Made by a program: the position numbers and the translations under genes
Notes under the pieces: model-generated
What the model was told of the DNA's origin: nothing
Database searches by the model: none
The model's input: only the letters and a program-made list of their open reading frames with translations
Shown: positions 3,982 to 13,693 of the stretch, piece after piece
Numbering within the stretch: position 1 is the first letter of the stretch
How the letters are laid out: the number at the start of each line of letters is the position of its first letter
Assembly (NCBI GenBank): GCA_021646415.1
Contig: SOEU01000030.1
Location: 1-34,686, forward strand
Length of the DNA stretch: 34,686 nucleotides
Direction of reading: 5' to 3'
Source: Candidatus Brocadia sp.
Lineage (GTDB): Bacteria; Planctomycetota; Brocadiia; Brocadiales; Brocadiaceae

Positions 3982-4086
3982 ATGAAGATTATTAAACTTG
4001 CTGCGATGACCTGTTTGTCGGTCTTTGTCGTTGTCAATGGCGTGATACCAACGGCTACGATTGCCGATGATCGCAGCGGCATATAG
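3982..4086 (+). pseudogene. Signal peptide of the c-type peroxidase, cut off by a frameshift
   Basis: A good ribosome-binding site (aaaaaaggagaat) precedes ATG at 3982. The 34-codon frame encodes a classic signal peptide with basic start, hydrophobic core and ADD cleavage region (MKIIKLAAMTCLSVFVVVNG and onward). It stops at a TAG in GGCATATAGGG. Dropping one of the two AT dinucleotides there gives GGC ATA GGG TAT GGC, which continues in frame through GYGRGGRMQGGA into the peroxidase. The signal peptide and the downstream enzyme are therefore most likely one broken gene, or one gene with an assembly error. Confidence 0.7.
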
Positions 4087-7104: not shown

Positions 7105-8031
7105 TTAAATCCGTGAGCCGATTGCCCGATAGTGTGCTTCCCTGTCACTTTCCGGAAGTGCAAGGAAGGCGTCAATTTTTGCAAGCATCGCTTGCTTGTC
7201 CTCATCTACCCTGCCGGATACCTGGACATAGTTGTTTCCATGATCGCAGGTGACAAACGTGGAAAGGTCGTGAAGCCGTTCAATCAGCAGCCTGAGTTCC
7301 AGGACGGTGCCTTCCGGGGTTTGCGGAATAAAATTACCGGTTCGTATTTCATGGAGAAGCGGGGATTCCGGTCCGGAAGACGAGTTATTGTTTTCATACG
7401 GCCACAGTCTCCTGATGCGCACGAATTCAGGTTCGGTTTCATTGATGATCCTTGCCGTCTCCTGAATGTGCCGCTGCCAATGATCCCTGCCACTCAGTCC
7501 CAGGAGTACATAAAAGGATATTTCGATGCCCGCTTCCTTAAGCCAGGCTGCTGTTTCCTTCACCATTTCAGGCGTTTGCCCTTTCCGGTGAAAGCGCAGG
7601 GTTTCGGCGTCTCCGGATTCAAGACCGATATGTAACCTGTTCAGACCTGCCTGCGCAAGCATCGTGATTGCATCTCTTTTGAATTTCCAGAGTGTCGATA
7701 CCCGGGCATAACAGGTAAGCCTCTTAATCGGCAAGGCATTGCGAAGGTATCCGGCAATTTCGACAAAGGTATCAACACCTGCCTGCAGAGGGTCGGCATC
7801 ACCGAAGAATGCAGTTTCCGCATCGGGATGGCGAAGTTTGAGAAGATCGATATCGCGTTTGATCTCAGCCACCGACCGAACGGAAAATCCCGGCTCTCCA
7901 AGGTAGGGATAGATGCCGCAGAAACGGCATCGGTTCCATTTACACCCCCTCGTAATACGCACGAGCAGGCTGCGCCACTCGCTTGGCGGACGAATGATCG
8001 GTATTTCAGGAACGTCGTTTCTTATACCCAT
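7105..8031 (-). CDS. Radical SAM protein
   Basis: A 308-residue radical SAM enzyme. The cluster motif is C-x4-C-x2-C in RITRGCKWNRCRFCGIYPY (residues about 27-42). The barrel follows with the glycine-rich GDADPLQ, the LHIGLESGD motif that binds S-adenosylmethionine, and FYVLLGLSGRD. The usual C-x3-C spacing is replaced by C-x4-C, a variant seen in a B12-independent group common in anaerobes. The C-terminus (TFVTCDHGNNYVQVSGRVDEDK and beyond) is conserved in that group, but I know no assigned reaction. The ATG at 8031 fits the family start; no clear ribosome-binding site precedes it. It is alone in its orientation, convergent with the PurD-like gene. Confidence 0.85.
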   Translation of the reverse strand: MGIRNDVPEIPIIRPPSEWRSLLVRITRGCKWNRCRFCGIYPYLGEPGFSVRSVAEIKRDIDLLKLRHPDAETAFFGDADPLQAGVDTFVEIAGYLRNALPIKRLTCYARVSTLWKFKRDAITMLAQAGLNRLHIGLESGDAETLRFHRKGQTPEMVKETAAWLKEAGIEISFYVLLGLSGRDHWQRHIQETARIINETEPEFVRIRRLWPYENNNSSSGPESPLLHEIRTGNFIPQTPEGTVLELRLLIERLHDLSTFVTCDHGNNYVQVSGRVDEDKQAMLAKIDAFLALPESDREAHYRAIGSRI

Positions 8032-8048
8032 GGATACGTTTTTCTAAC

Positions 8049-8118
8049 TATAAAGGCAACTATTCATCGTACCTTTGCTCACAATCACTACGAGGGAACA
8101 AAATGTTGGTTCTGTAAT
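8049..8118 (+). repeat. Dispersed ~70-bp repeat, copy 1
   Basis: Shares about three quarters of its bases with 11078-11147 (common core cacaatcactacgag-aacaaaat). It lies just upstream of the radical SAM gene. Origin unknown. Confidence 0.6.
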
Positions 8119-8533
8119 CCCGAAGGGATGTCATTATTATAGCATATCGTTATACGGTTATTGTTAACCCCGTAAAGGTGGCATGGTATCATTCATTTTC
8201 GCGTTATTTCACCCCTACGGGGTTAATTATTGTGGTGTGCCTTTTCTATAATCATGTCATCCCTTTGGGATTTTCCGGTCTGTCCGTTTTTCCCTATTGG
8301 CTCTTAGCTATTCGGAGAAAACACCATCTGGCAGTTTCGCTGAATAGCCAAGTAGGGCAGGTATTACCTGCCAATTAATCTTACAATTAAAAACGATAGA
8401 TACCTGAATATTTAACGTAGAAGTGGATACGATCATCACTCCAATTACAGATCTTTCATGCAAGGACTATCCTGATTGATCAATTTTGGTAGGCAGTGCC
8501 TACCCTACTTTACTAAATCTACCGCCAATCATA

Positions 8534-8568
8534 TATAATCACAAATCAAGGTGTGACACCTTGCCCCC
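8534..8568 (+). repeat. 35-bp direct repeat, left copy
   Basis: Identical over 35 bp to 9476-9510. It includes the palindrome CAAGGTGTGACACCTTG. The two copies bracket the PIN toxin-antitoxin pair at 8798-9384. Confidence 0.85.
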
Positions 8569-8797
8569 TGTTAGCTGCCCCCTGGACACTTTCCCCTGCC
8601 CCCTTTTTCATGCTTCCCATATCCGCACAAATTGTCCACATAAATCAAAATATATGACAGGCAATCCCTGCTCTACCCGACTGTTTGTATCCCTTATTGA
8701 CTATTTCTTATTATCAAAGTAAAATTCAAATGGTTTCATGAAAAACCATTATGACGATATTAGATTTAAATCTCTTAATAATTTAAGGATGACTGTT

Positions 8798-8995
8798 ATG
8801 CATAAATCAAATTTATTAAACGAAATCAAATTGATAGAATTAAAACTCCAGGCACTTAAAACTCAGGTGAAATCTAAAAAACCTAAAGTTAAGATTCATA
8901 CTTCAGCGACTCTTTACGGTTTGATCAAAGGAAGCCAGGATATTACCCCCAAAGATATAGAAGCCGTTAAGATAAAACTAAAGGAGTCTATTTAG
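8798..8995 (+). CDS. Antitoxin of a PIN toxin pair
   Basis: About 65 residues from the ATG at 8798: a leucine-rich amphipathic helix (NLLNEIKLIELKLQALKTQVK), a lysine-rich linker and a C-terminal segment (SATLYGLIKGSQDITPKDIEAVKIKL). The ATG at 8798 is preferred because AAGGA lies 8 bases upstream; the frame also opens at 8738. The small acidic-basic protein ending in 'YGLxKG...DIxxxKxKL' directly upstream of a PIN gene, with the two overlapping by one base (TAGTG), is the usual layout of this VapBC-like group. No AbrB or ribbon-helix-helix motif is visible, so its DNA-binding mode is unknown. Confidence 0.7.
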   Translation: MHKSNLLNEIKLIELKLQALKTQVKSKKPKVKIHTSATLYGLIKGSQDITPKDIEAVKIKLKESI

Positions 8996-9384
8996 TGCAT
9001 ATAGTAACTGACACACACCCATGGGTATGGTTCCTCACAGCAAATCCTCGACTATCTTTAAAGGCAAAATCAGCATTATCTGACTCTTCCAATATCATTA
9101 TCATTCCATCAATAGTCATGATGGAAATAAAATACCTTTATCACCGTAAACGTATATCACTACCCTTTGAAGAGGTCATGCAACAATGTGAAACGGCTGA
9201 AAATGTCCTTTTCCATCCAATGGACCTTTCTATTGTATCCATTGCACCCACCAGCTTTGACATCCACGACGCTATCATTGTCGGTACCGCAATCCAGTTT
9301 GCCGAAGAGCTTGGGCAAGCAGTGTCACTTGTTACCGCAGATAGTGCAATAACCGAATCTCATCTCGTTCCGGTAATATGGTAA
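8995..9384 (+). CDS. PIN-domain ribonuclease toxin, VapC-like
   Basis: The 129-residue protein starts with GTG: M-HIVTDTHPWVWFL carries the first catalytic Asp in the 'DTHxWxWFL' form of the PIN superfamily. It continues with SIVMMEIKYLYHRKR (the conserved Glu), PTSFDIHDAIIVGTAIQ (the later Asp residues) and LVTADSAI. This is the compact bacterial subgroup of PIN nucleases found behind small helical antitoxins. GTG overlaps the antitoxin stop, so translation is coupled. All acidic residues needed for metal binding appear to be present, so it may be functional. Confidence 0.85.
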   Translation: MHIVTDTHPWVWFLTANPRLSLKAKSALSDSSNIIIIPSIVMMEIKYLYHRKRISLPFEEVMQQCETAENVLFHPMDLSIVSIAPTSFDIHDAIIVGTAIQFAEELGQAVSLVTADSAITESHLVPVIW

Positions 9385-9475
9385 ACATTTCTTCATCTGT
9401 CAAATAGCAGACACAAGCATTCCTGTTTTTCAAAAGTTGTCAGTTGTCAGGTATCAGTTTTCAGCCTGTATCCTG

Positions 9476-9510
9476 TATAATCACAAATCAAGGTGTGACA
9501 CCTTGCCCCC
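9476..9510 (+). repeat. 35-bp direct repeat, right copy
   Basis: Identical to 8534-8568. It lies exactly at the point where the IS3-type orfB frame loses its homology, so it or its flank cut that gene. Confidence 0.85.
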
Positions 9511-9570
9511 ACCTTGCCCCTTGCTTTTGATACGTACCTGTTGAGCAAGAGATTCAGCGGCACGCATCAT
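9481..9570 (-). pseudogene. IS3-type orfB, N-terminal stub
   Basis: Frame starts ATGATG overlapping the orfA stop (ATATGATG), the normal layout for IS3 elements. It reads MMRAAESLAQQV, similar to the opening of orfB transposases that accompany this orfA type. After about 17 codons it runs into the 35-bp repeat and stops. The DDE catalytic domain is entirely missing. Confidence 0.6.
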
Positions 9571-10125
9571 ATCTTCTCTCCTGTTGGATCGAGCGGTATC
9601 TGAAGTATTTCCGAGAGTTTTTTTTGGACGTCAATAATGGTTTCTGCCTGTTTGAGTTTCTCTTTCAGTTGCAGGTTTTCTTTTTCCAGTTCAGCAATAC
9701 GACAAACGGAAGGATCCATGTTTTTCGCCTTTGGACCACGATGTTTTGGGGAAAGCGCTTCCCGGGCGCCTTTCTCCTGTTGACGACGCCATGTGGTGAG
9801 GTTAGACGAGTAGAGTCCTTCACGGCGTAAAAGCGCCCCAATTTGACCCTGTGTAGTACATGCTTCCGCCTCTTGAAGGATGCGGAGTTTGTATGTTGCG
9901 GTGAATTTCCGGCGAACAGCCTTCTCGGTTACCTCAGGGTCAGGAAAATGACCGCTTTGGATTGCGCCGCCAGGGGAAACTCCAGTCGCCCTACGGGCTC
10001 CTTCCGTTTCCACAGACAGGTTATCTGTTTTCAGACTTATTGTATTACTGTTTTTCATAGTTTTTCTCCTTTACGCCCTACACTAAACTATATGGGGTAA
10101 AGTGTCCAACTATTATTGACACAGA
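9511..10125 (-). mobile_element. Remnant of an IS3-type element
   Basis: Contains complete orfA and about 17 codons of orfB. The left end probably lies in TGTCAATAATAGTTGGACAC, reading leftward from about 10118. The right side is cut at the 35-bp repeat. It abuts, and most likely truncated, the group II intron at 10126-10691. Boundaries are approximate. Confidence 0.65.
9567..10058 (-). CDS. IS3-family transposase OrfA
   Basis: A 163-residue protein. A variable N-terminus is followed by a helix-turn-helix (RRKFTATYKLRILQEAEACT, then IGALLRREGLYSSNLTTWRRQ) at about 50-90 and a coiled coil rich in Leu/Glu/Lys (IAELEKENLQLKEKLKQAET) at about 120-150. This is the DNA-binding OrfA of IS3-type elements. 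Upstream lies a good ribosome-binding site (AAAGGAG). The catalytic orfB downstream is reduced to a stub, so the element cannot move by itself. The N-terminal extension before the helix-turn-helix is longer than in most OrfA proteins but appears in relatives from anammox-type genomes. Confidence 0.85.
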   Translation of the reverse strand: MKNSNTISLKTDNLSVETEGARRATGVSPGGAIQSGHFPDPEVTEKAVRRKFTATYKLRILQEAEACTTQGQIGALLRREGLYSSNLTTWRRQQEKGAREALSPKHRGPKAKNMDPSVCRIAELEKENLQLKEKLKQAETIIDVQKKLSEILQIPLDPTGEKI

Positions 10126-10691
10126 GGGTCCCTTGCAAAATAACAAGTTTGCATAAATTGTTAAGGTTCCTCCCACTTCTGGTTGACCTATATTTATTTT
10201 GGACATGTCAGCCCCTTCGCTCCATTTCCATTACAGAAACTTCTACACTACTACGAACTGATCCGCCCCTGTGCGCTGCATTAGTACTCAAAGCCTTACA
10301 GGGCTTCTGCTTGGCTCGCTCCCTTAGCATCAACACGACAGGTTCCCAAGTTCCATATAAAAGCCCATATTTGATTCACGCCACCTCTATGCCGGTTGCC
10401 GTTTGGACAGTAAAAGGTTTCCTCCAAACTTATCCCAAAAGCACCCTAGTCCTCTGGTTTTGACAACACCGGTCTTACTTTCGACACCTCATCAGTGGTT
10501 CACTTGCGTTCGTCTCTCAAATACACACCTGACTAAATCGTTGTTTTGTCTTTTTCCACAACGCTTACCACCATGACTCTTTACCACAGCAGCTTGGGAA
10601 GGTTTGGAACCCACGCCTTTACATCGATTCCGAGAGGCCTACTCTCATCTTTTATATAGTATAAACAGCTTTGCTATTCTTCTTGGCACAC
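10126..10691 (-). mobile_element. 5' part of a group II intron, reverse transcriptase lost
   Basis: On the minus strand the sequence starts GTGTGCCAAG (10691 downward), matching the GUGYG 5' consensus of group II introns. It then has the conserved structural stretches usually found just before an ltrA-type gene: GAACGCAAGTGAACC, GGGAACCTGTCGTGTTGATG, GCAGAAGCCCTGTAAGGC, TTTCTGTAATGGAAATGGAG and AGTGGGAGGAACC. The length of about 560 nt is right for domains I-III. The ribosome-binding site GGAGG and an ATG about 12 bases on are present, but after about seven codons (MQTCYFA) the IS3-type element begins. The maturase/reverse transcriptase and domains V-VI are absent. The 5' flank is a small hairpin (10695-10718). 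Recognition is from memory of such RNAs; a covariance search would settle it. Confidence 0.75.
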
Positions 10692-10852
10692 TAAGGTTGA
10701 GTAAAGCGAAAACCCAACAAATCAAATTATTCATGCCTACTTTTACATCAAATTTAATCAACCGAGGAAGACGTCTTTTTTTAGTCTACTTTTACATATA
10801 AAGGATAATTTCCATGTATAACCATTTTGCATTTTTTCAATGGATGTATTAA

Positions 10853-10980
10853 GAACGGATATTTCAATGGAAAATTCGTTTGAGAAAATAACCCTACTTG
10901 CGAATGATTGCCTTCGTGTCCCTACTGCCGGGAACAGTGAATCAAGTATTTAAGGAATGCAATGAAAGCCCTGTTCTTCA
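10853..10980 (+). repeat. Dispersed repeat, copy 2 (partner 2484-2610)
   Basis: Same orientation as 2484-2610, beginning gatatttcaatggaaaattc. The ATG frame in this copy reads MENSFEKITLLANDCLRVP before stopping, which looks slightly more protein-like than in copy 1. Confidence 0.65.
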
Positions 10981-11077
10981 AAATGGGCATCAAAGGTGAA
11001 AATGGTTTTTATTCCTGAATTGCGCATAATTTCGAAACTTATGCAATCAACAAATATTCTCATTTGCCAAATGCCTT

Positions 11078-11147
11078 TATAAGGGTAACTACTCAGCGTA
11101 CTTTCGCCCACAATCACTACGAGCAAACAAAATATTGATTATGAAAT
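11078..11147 (+). repeat. Dispersed ~70-bp repeat, copy 2
   Basis: Partner of 8049-8118. Shared core cacaatcactacgag. Confidence 0.6.
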
Positions 11148-11498
11148 CATGGAATTTATTTTGGTGGGCAGTACCACCTACTTGACTGAAGTCATGGCAC
11201 GCATACGACTTATCAGACCACCACGGGTTAAACCCGCGGAGTACACCAAGAACCTCAGTTTGATTAAAAAATTGCCCCACATTTAACATCAAAAGTGATA
11301 TAATATGTCAAATATGTATAGTATGCTATGCTTATATTAGTAAATATATCGTTTTTTTTGCAATCATAAAAGTTATGCCGTCAATACCTTATTCCTCTCT
11401 TCCAGCAAATCAAATTATCCGTGCCGTACTGTCATATCAGATTTAATTAGGCCTTCGGTGACATTGTTTGCGGCCACACGTAGAAGTAAATGGAAGTT

Positions 11499-11531
11499 AA
11501 CACTGTCAGGGTGCTAAACCCTGACAGTGTT
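11499..11531. repeat. Perfect 14-bp hairpin
   Basis: Arms AACACTGTCAGGGT and ACCCTGACAGTGTT are separated by GCTAA. There is no T-run behind either side, so this is a palindromic repeat rather than a standard terminator. Confidence 0.75.
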
Positions 11532-11680
11532 CTGATTTCAACAAACATTGAAATTCCTTTAATTCTAATCGTATGGAACTATCGTGATTGGCTGTTTTTT
11601 CGTGGTTCAATTCTTTTGATTGCAGCGTTAGGGATTATTATGCCACAAAATTTCTTTTGTATGAATACCCATACCCTCGC

Positions 11681-12253
11681 TTATCTGAAAAAGGGATTGG
11701 TGTATTTTTCAATACCCACGGTAGTCATGGGCCCGTGGGCAGGAAATACCATGGTCTCGTCCGGCAAGGAAAAGATGTGCTTGCGGATATGGTCGATCTG
11801 GCGTTTGGCCTCTTTTAATGAACCGGTGCCACCCACCGTACCGCAAAAAAGGGCATCACCGGTAAACACGCAACCGGACACGTAGTACGAGATGCCACAC
11901 GGTGTGTGCCCCGGGATGGGGAGTGCATGAATTCGTAAATGTCCGACCTTGATGGTCTCGCCACCCCGCAACGAATGGCTGACAGTATCTACCTCCCCCT
12001 CTCCGGCATAGCTTTGTAGCTGGTAGCGGCTGGTAAACTCCGTTAACCCTTCGGTATGGTCCCAGTGGCCATGCGTAATAAAAAGATGCTGCAGTAGGAT
12101 TTTTCGCTCTTTAACAAATGCCTCAATCTCTTCGCTGAAACCGCCCGGATCGATAAATGCCCCGACCCGTGTCATGGGATCGGCCACCAAATACCCGTTA
12201 ATCGGGAAGCTCCCTACCGTAAAGCGTTTCAATATCAGATCGTGTATCATCAT
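11681..12253 (-). CDS. Metallo-beta-lactamase-fold hydrolase (glyoxalase II-like)
   Basis: About 190 residues from MMIHDLILKRFTVGSFPINGY. The metal-binding motif is THGHWDHTEG (HxHxDH), followed by PIPGHTPCGISYYV, FTGDALFCGTVGGTG and the last histidine in FPAHGPMTT. Together these supply all usual zinc ligands of glyoxalase II-like and thioesterase-type hydrolases. Length matches the single-domain bacterial form often annotated YcbL/GloB-like. Likely cytoplasmic hydrolysis of a thioester; the substrate is not readable from sequence. The frame is open to 12325, but a start at 12253 or 12250 puts the N-terminus where the family begins and leaves out a hydrophobic extension. No clear ribosome-binding site is visible. 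Confidence 0.8.
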   Translation of the reverse strand: MMIHDLILKRFTVGSFPINGYLVADPMTRVGAFIDPGGFSEEIEAFVKERKILLQHLFITHGHWDHTEGLTEFTSRYQLQSYAGEGEVDTVSHSLRGGETIKVGHLRIHALPIPGHTPCGISYYVSGCVFTGDALFCGTVGGTGSLKEAKRQIDHIRKHIFSLPDETMVFPAHGPMTTVGIEKYTNPFFR

Positions 12254-12325
12254 GCGATACCCAATGGACAATGTGTATATGACATACAAGCACAGAATGA
12301 GTAAATTAGCGAAAAGGCATTTCAA

Positions 12326-12410
12326 TTACCCCCCATAATCCCCCCGTAAACGGGGGGAGACGCTTTTTGTCCCTCCTGTTTTACGAGGAGAAGAAACAGG
12401 GGGGGAGTCG
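12326..12410. repeat. C/G-rich hairpin repeats
   Basis: Contains CCCCCCGTAAACGGGGGG and a ccctcctgttt...aaacaggggggg arm pair. It separates two leftward genes. A 'gttcgtggttcggcaggctc' intergenic repeat motif follows at about 12430. Confidence 0.55.
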
Positions 12411-12490
12411 CCAGTGGCCTCATTTAATGCGTTCGTGGTTCGGCAGGCTCACCATGAACGGTGTTATTTATATTGGCTCAGGAGATCCGG

Positions 12491-13144
12491 CTAATCATAC
12501 CGAACCCGCTCCAGGTTGGCCGCCTGCTGAATGTCGGTGTCAATCCACTTCGTGTCGATAAATCTGGCCTTGTGGAATACCGATTCGTTGAGTGTGCATT
12601 TCTCAAAAGTGCAGCGGATGAAGGTTGCCGCACGGAAAATGGCCTTTTGCAAACGGCATCCCGCGAACGTTGTTTCAATAAAGACCGACGAGGGAAATCG
12701 GGCAAAGAAATAATCTTCCTCTTCAAACCGGCAGCCTTGCCACCAGGTGCCGCTCAAGGAGACCTCTCTGAGCCGGGAACCACGGAGTTTGCAGCCGGAA
12801 AAAACTGATAGGCCAAACGAACTGAGTTCTCCCTTTGTCGCCTCAAACGTACATCCGGAAAAATGACTTTCGCTAAAAAAAGAATTCCGTACTTCCAAAC
12901 CTGTCCATGCGCAATCCTGATAATGTCCCTGATCACACAGGACGTGGTCAACGGAAAAATTTTGGAAACGGGTATCCTGCGCTCGGAGATAACGGCAACG
13001 CCCATCCTGCATCTTGAAGGACTGAACTGTACTACCAATCAGGCGCCGGTTAGAGAAATCCTCCTGCGTTAGGTTCAACCCGGAAAGGGTTTCCTGAATA
13101 AATATCGTTTTATCCTGATGTTGATTTTCTTCCGTATGACTCAT
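12491..13144 (-). CDS. Pentapeptide-repeat protein
   Basis: A 217-residue protein built of five-residue repeats of the A(N/D)Lxx type in a relaxed form: SFKMQDGRCRYLRAQDTRF, FFSESHFSGCTFEATKGEL, VFIETTFAGCRLQKAIFRAA, TFIRCTFEKCTLNESVFHKA. These make a right-handed quadrilateral beta helix covering residues about 30-210. The Cys-rich version with large aromatic residues is common in bacteria of unknown phenotype. Some relatives mimic DNA (Qnr/MfpA), but nothing here points to gyrase. It follows the zinc-ribbon gene by 42 bp and is probably co-transcribed with it. No signal peptide. Confidence 0.8.
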   Translation of the reverse strand: MSHTEENQHQDKTIFIQETLSGLNLTQEDFSNRRLIGSTVQSFKMQDGRCRYLRAQDTRFQNFSVDHVLCDQGHYQDCAWTGLEVRNSFFSESHFSGCTFEATKGELSSFGLSVFSGCKLRGSRLREVSLSGTWWQGCRFEEEDYFFARFPSSVFIETTFAGCRLQKAIFRAATFIRCTFEKCTLNESVFHKARFIDTKWIDTDIQQAANLERVRYD

Positions 13145-13186
13145 AATTTATTGCAGAAACAGGAATCCAAAACTCCCTCTCCTTTT

Positions 13187-13693
13187 TCATGAAGGAGTTT
13201 TCTTTCTGCCTTTCAGATATTTCCGATACCGCTCTTCACCAACACACTCGCTTCCCACCGGGCACTTTTCAATACAACTCTCCGGCACTTCACGCTGCAC
13301 CGTTTTCCCGCAAAGCTCACAGGCAAACTCATGCTCGAAACCGGCCACCGACGCCGTACTCTGCTTATGACAGTGCGGACACGTTACATCGATAATCTCC
13401 ACCCTTTTTATCTTCTCCGCACCGGGACACTGAAAGATGCCAGGTTTTTTCAATCTCTCTGCAGGAGGCGGAGTATACTCCTTTATTTGCGAAATGATTT
13501 GGGTCGCCAAAATGCGAAGGGGCATACGGTGTTCTCTTCTCAAAAATTCCTGAAGCGCCTTCATGGCTTCCTGATTTCCTTTTCCAATCCTGCCAATCTC
13601 TTCAAGGGACTGCTTTACAGTCTCAGCGTTCCCATGATATAATTTCTGCAAAAACACGGTAATATCTGTGATGTTTGAGGTAAGGTCTTTCAT
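13187..13693 (-). CDS. Zinc-ribbon protein of unknown function
   Basis: The 168-residue protein is not recognised. The first 85 residues are helical and repeat-like (TVFLQKLYHGNAETVKQSLE, then MKALQEFLRREHRMPLRIL), reminiscent of a HEAT-type or four-helix segment. After a proline linker comes a zinc ribbon (CPHCHKQS, then FACELCGKTV) and two further cysteines (CIEKCPVGSECVGEE). The basic C-terminus (RYRKYLKGRKK) could bind nucleic acid. The ATG at 13693 is chosen over an upstream GTG at 13702. It is the first gene of the leftward group that includes the pentapeptide-repeat gene. Confidence 0.65.
   Translation of the reverse strand: MKDLTSNITDITVFLQKLYHGNAETVKQSLEEIGRIGKGNQEAMKALQEFLRREHRMPLRILATQIISQIKEYTPPPAERLKKPGIFQCPGAEKIKRVEIIDVTCPHCHKQSTASVAGFEHEFACELCGKTVQREVPESCIEKCPVGSECVGEERYRKYLKGRKKTPS

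Follow-up and report, generated by a model that had tools for sequence, protein, structure and literature searches.

A truncated group II intron at a REP-like palindrome of Candidatus Brocadia and the apparently mosaic family of its ORF-less relatives

The window, a stretch of 34,686 nt from Candidatus Brocadia sp. (contig SOEU01000030.1), contains a group II intron of which only the 5′ part is left, broken by an IS3-family element that is itself cut. This stack of mobile DNA is dead and truncated twice, and loci of its kind are common. The explanation that best accounts for the observations as a whole, and that we hold to be very probable, is an intron inserted at a REP, the landing of an IS3 element, a deletion and a dead remnant, with non-autonomous relatives that have exchanged halves. 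At the base of a REP-like palindrome, a small, maturase-less group II intron would have inserted through pairing of EBS1 with IBS1; both the pairing and the palindrome are observed. Later an IS3-family element landed 5–8 nt before domain V, as the alignment shows, and a deletion from the IS orfB may then have taken domains V-VI and the 3′ exon together with what remained of the IS. The lost parts of intron and IS were not found elsewhere. Among the intact relatives, a shared 3′ module on unlike 5′ halves implies repeated exchange of intron halves. This ORF-less family is of more interest than the window fossil, itself ordinary: one ORF-less module is seen across genomes whose names span five phyla, most of the assemblies examined contain no close helper, and a sharp switch of ancestry lies inside the intron. 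If this is confirmed, modular exchange is a way in which group II introns evolve, and intron parasites can renew their targeting by recombining with helpers.

Intron and IS remnants at the locus

The features of the locus are collected in Table 1. As the sequence-only reading had proposed, the intron starts with GTGTGCC on the minus strand, and a search with Rfam models detected the conserved D1-D4 RNA structure of group II introns, with D1D4-2 as the best Rfam class (the gathering score of RF01999 is 36). In the source genome (3.8 Mb) this is the only RF01999 match. Neither a complete copy of the intron, including one with ltrA for which a search had been advised, nor another D1-D4 of its kind was found in that genome.

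Table 1. Features at the intron-IS locus (window coordinates)
Feature	Position	Strand	Remarks
41-bp repeat beside IS break	9470..9510	.	second copy at 8528-8568, 95%
IS3-family remnant	9525..10128	minus	left end, orfA and the initial ~45 nt of orfB; right part missing
IS orfA	9567..10058	minus	163 aa; HTH_Tnp_1 (Pfam); weak NF033516 IS3 match
Group II intron, 5′ part	10129..10691	minus	563 nt; domains I-III and short domain IV; RF01999 match
Shared ORF-less domain III/IV segment	10129..10210	minus	tgacatgtccaaaata...ggtcaacc...gggaggaac...atttatgcaaacttg.ta; alignment
EBS1 UAGGGU	10443..10448	minus	covariation scan
Rfam group-II-D1D4-2 (RF01999)	10527..10646	minus	97.4 bits, E 5.7e-19
IBS1 ACCUUA	10697-10692	minus	pairs with EBS1
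5′ exon, REP-like palindrome	10692..10720	minus	TTGTTGGG...CTCAACC-TTA; intron placed after (C)TTA

The intron has no domain V, no domain VI and no 3′ splice site. The domain V model RF00029 had no match at the locus, which marks the intron as a fragment and not a complete one, and no domain V was detected in window 8000-13500 even at E 10. Six domain Vs are present in the source genome and none is of the ORF-less type; the nearest, in contig C29 (80% over 60 nt), lies downstream of another intron's RT. A missing domain V would also be expected of a split or circularly permuted intron acting in trans with its domain V elsewhere, and circularly permuted bacterial introns exist, as a passage of PMC8637638 describes. 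These same searches, at the locus and among the six genomic domain Vs, make such an arrangement extremely improbable. Two lone domain Vs, at C6:105575 and C1:76797, were considered as the missing part and rejected, as their sequences differ. A 3′ intron half beside the IS copy in contig C1 was likewise rejected as the missing half, since it belongs to a different class (D1D4-4; 96% to C1:78717-79228). Judged from its sequence, the truncated remnant, lacking the catalytic domain, should neither splice nor move.

The sequence that takes over from the intron is an IS3-like end, as had been read from the letters. This left end, CCCTCTGTGTCAATA at 10128, recurs in contigs C14, C1 (one change), C24 and, reversed, C20, and over 604 nt C1:378301-378904 is 94% identical to the whole remnant. 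The longer C1 copy remains homologous up to a point near 9525, in the first codons of orfB. That copy has both ends and is about 1.5 kb long, with an orfB that is itself defective. Of the IS3 hallmarks, which are an orfA with HTH, an orfB with DDE and imperfect inverted ends, orfA and the left end are in the window, and orfB and the right end only in other copies; at the locus both the IS right end and the 3′ exon are lost. The proposed double truncation, of the intron by the IS and of the IS near 9525, was supported. The IS does keep orfA and only the start of orfB, as had been claimed, while the repeat beside the break, read as 35 bp, measures 41 bp. A contig mis-join at this multicopy IS may underlie the intron-IS junction.

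In C1 a copy of this IS lies against a second intron, at the 3′ part of the latter: the IS right end is followed by the maturase and domain V of the D1D4-4-type intron mentioned above. This could be taken as a preference of the IS for introns. Other IS ends are in C14, C24, C20, C6 and C31; no Rfam intron was found in the C14, C24 and C20 loci, the flanks in C14, C24, C6 and C31 had a single 46-nt match by blastn, the sites are few, and the preference is quite improbable.

Further elements were observed. The C1 locus (L008 1501-3604, that is C1:378301-380404) is the one in which the IS abuts the second intron class, domain V-VI pieces of which are also present in C13, C16 and C5. L008 also has a c-di-GMP-I riboswitch at 1048-1163 on the minus strand (56 bits). 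In the window, a small ORF followed by a PIN-domain ORF, VapBC-like, is located on the plus strand at 8738-9384, between the two 41-bp repeat copies with palindrome AAGGTGTGACACCTT, and a DUF3800-V RNA motif (RF02964, 50.3 bits) is located at 1766-1864 on the plus strand.

ORF-less domain IV and helper reverse transcriptases

The closest relatives of the window intron are intact ORF-less introns (from a Methylomonas plasmid, Scalindua, Methylobacter and others) in which a short domain IV is followed by domain V. Among plasmids, the window query found its best match in an unannotated intron of Methylomonas sp. AM2-LC (CP157007.1, L054), with 76.7% identity over query positions 68-591. In that intron D1-D4 is followed by a short domain IV and then by domain V-VI, and no RT frame lies between them. 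The window tracks this intron via GGGAGGAAC...ATTTAYGCAAACTTG.TA.TTTGCAAGGG up to L054 base 4020. Domain V begins there near 4026-4030, and the window homology ends about 5–8 nt before it, where the IS starts. With the Methylomonas 3′ part as query, a contiguous ORF-less copy was obtained in an apparent Scalindua genome (G060, 83%), while the match of the window to that query stopped at position 141 of 236, at the start of the IS. The pattern of the 3′ part of the shared domain III/IV segment occurred at 12 loci in 7 named genomes, six of these loci in one Methylobacter MAG, and at all 12 domain V follows directly; viral contigs gave no match to the ORF-less domain IV pattern.

The sequence-only reading had placed the cut at the reverse transcriptase, after about 560 nt of intron RNA up to a GGAGG before the maturase gene. 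An ordinary RT-bearing intron that was broken at the maturase gene or ahead of it would indeed show the GGGAGG that the window (10174-10169) has in common with RT-bearing relatives, and in the window ATG CAA ACT TGT comes after it. The sequence 3′ of GGGAGG is nevertheless of the ORF-less type, a compact domain IV unlike the RT start of 11 RT-bearing relatives, which in the alignment diverge right after GGGAGG into the RT reading frame; the corresponding frame in Methylomonas is ACG CAA ACT TGG TAA. The RT-bearing alternative is therefore very improbable and a cut at the reverse transcriptase is unsupported. No RT frame is present between domains III and V, in the window as far as domain IV reaches and in the relatives through domain V. 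As the window follows its ORF-less relatives to within about 5–8 nt of domain V, the part lost is the catalytic domain and not a maturase gene.

ORF-less introns of Neochlamydia and Rhizobium leguminosarum were considered as products of the same loss and rejected; they have other domain IV remnants, which indicates separate losses. In the Neochlamydia plasmid (L181, NZ_AP017978.1 39942-42564) ORF-less introns are arranged head to tail with a 645-nt period, each start being annotated as a hypothetical protein. Another independent ORF-less intron (L162, G117:C137) has kept, ahead of domain V, a remnant that resembles the start of an RT.

Of the 12 genomes that have ORF-less copies, the window genome among them, only two (G066 and G062) yielded a close helper RT, defined as one at least 50% identical to an RF01999-type RT. 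In the remaining genomes the best RT was 35-48% identical or there was none (G209, G167), absences that are weakened by incomplete assemblies. Two genomes in few large contigs (G266, G067) had only 34-41% RT relatives. According to PMC4424553, bacterial ORF-less introns are rare and nearly always housed with a close related IEP/helper; they are also a class counted in a genome survey (PMC8919778). The maturase of other introns probably drives the intact ORF-less relatives, which would be non-autonomous retroelements.

A shared 3′ module on unlike 5′ halves

The relatives without an ORF, named from five phyla (for several copies the name is that on MAG contigs of 3-16 kb, and mis-binning could inflate the spread), have one domain III-VI module common to unlike 5′ halves. 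In a D1-D4 tree of 26 of the 31 introns (L110 and L123 were out as duplicates of L124 and L111, and L049, L133 and L043 as partial or unclear) the ORF-less copies did not form one clade, and a single clade was rejected with p-AU 1.3e-8. For a split-tree test the alignment was divided at the conserved GTAGTAG and 20 of the 31 introns were used, L035, L036, L066, L158, L162 and L174 being further left out; the window intron, L156, L039 and L042 entered the 3′ tree without domain V-VI. The 378 columns of the 5′ part rejected grouping of the ORF-less introns in a single clade, with a delta lnL of 210. At the 3′ part (191 columns, domain V-VI where present) 9/9 ORF-less rows fell in one clade (96/93). 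The 3′ columns adjoin the ORF-less trait itself, and thus the 3′ clade describes the module and not the intron as a whole. Between nt 430 and 488 of the intron, mean identity was 91.4% between ORF-less introns, 73.7% between ORF-less and RT-bearing introns and 71.9% between RT-bearing introns; at nt 35-371 the three classes differed by no more than about 4 points.

The switch is seen most clearly within one Desulfurivibrionaceae genome, where the ORF-less intron L098 and the RT-bearing intron L111 are 96, 98, 76, 96, 98, 98 and 97% identical in successive 60-column bins up to about nt 430, and 75 and 50% beyond it; in that region L098 is 97% identical to a Bacteroidales copy. The risk of mis-binning is least for L098, because its partner is in the same genome, on a long contig. 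By eye, L098 is once more similar to L111 in parts of domain V-VI, so that the exchanged piece may have two ends. From the aligned sequences, the L098/L111 switch suggests a non-autonomous intron exchanging halves with helpers.

A single ORF deletion, with the ORF-less copies as one clade and without exchange of halves, would account for the one domain III-VI module and its single 3′ clade. It has a precedent in the ORF-less introns of Thermosynechococcus elongatus (TeI3 series), which, according to PMC2882425, use a maturase in trans and arose by a single deletion in one genome, one sister intron being broken by an IS. The likeness extends to the short domain IV after ORF loss and to the fit of EBS/IBS to the site. 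In contrast to that single deletion within one genome, the present family has one ORF-less module, unlike 5′ halves and host genomes named from five phyla. The cost of 210 log-likelihood units at the 5′ part, and the 96-98% identity of L098 to L111 in 6 of 7 bins followed by 75 and 50%, render the single-deletion alternative unlikely. Exchange of halves is thereby supported; DNA recombination or template switching during reverse transcription would be the candidate mechanisms. More tentatively, it is possible that a horizontally spreading, non-autonomous ORF-less domain III-VI module persists by swapping in the 5′ half and targeting loops of any resident RT intron, perhaps by RT template switching, and settles at REP palindromes. 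No earlier description of this mosaic family or of a REP-homing intron family was found among open-licence papers.

The insertion site and known systems

In a covariation scan of 31 introns, in which columns were ranked by pairing their own 5′ exon better than shuffled exons, EBS1/IBS1 gave the peak (z 11.6; next unrelated column 4.5). In the window intron EBS1 pairs with IBS1 at 6/6 positions, one of them a G-U. The 5′ flank folds as a 7-bp hairpin. It had been likened to sites at terminators or palindromes; the hairpin and the palindrome stand, and what forms the hairpin is not a terminator but a REP-like palindrome that is dispersed in the genome. Eleven uninterrupted relatives of it were seen in the source genome, nine ending in CTAC, one in CTTAC and one in CTTC, and REPs are dispersed palindromes ending GTAG/CTAC. 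The window copy ends in CTTA because the intron follows.

Taken alone the window hairpin is unremarkable, its stem score being reached by 7.5% of control positions. Stems with a score of 6.5 or more abutted the splice site in 10 of 26 ORF-less copies and near kin, against an expectation of 1.81 drawn from the remaining positions of these loci, and in 2 of 16 YADD-type and other kin, against 1.04; the groups were chosen after some hairpins had been seen, some copies share a genome, and L107 (only 7 nt of 5′ exon) and L114 (not alignable) were left out of both.

Group IIC introns insert after terminators or attC. The window intron resembles them in the hairpin just 5′ of its insertion point and differs in its best Rfam class (D1D4-2), in the six-pair EBS1-IBS1 and in the hairpin being a REP. 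REPs are described as targets of IS and other elements, and for Pseudomonas putida a table lists a group II intron with 2/9 in REP (PMC1525189); the accompanying passage, unlike the present case, contains no intron family or site rule.

RT-bearing RF01999 introns nested in YADD codons of RT genes have the same Rfam class and the 5′ end GTGYGCC; unlike these, the window copy is without an RT and is located at a REP. A reference title in PMC8919778 concerns archaeal introns, ORF-less and RT-encoding, that home into the ORFs of introns. Among the introns compared here, RF01999 introns at YADD codons of other introns' RT genes were observed at L037, L039, L040, L042, L049, L105 and L121.
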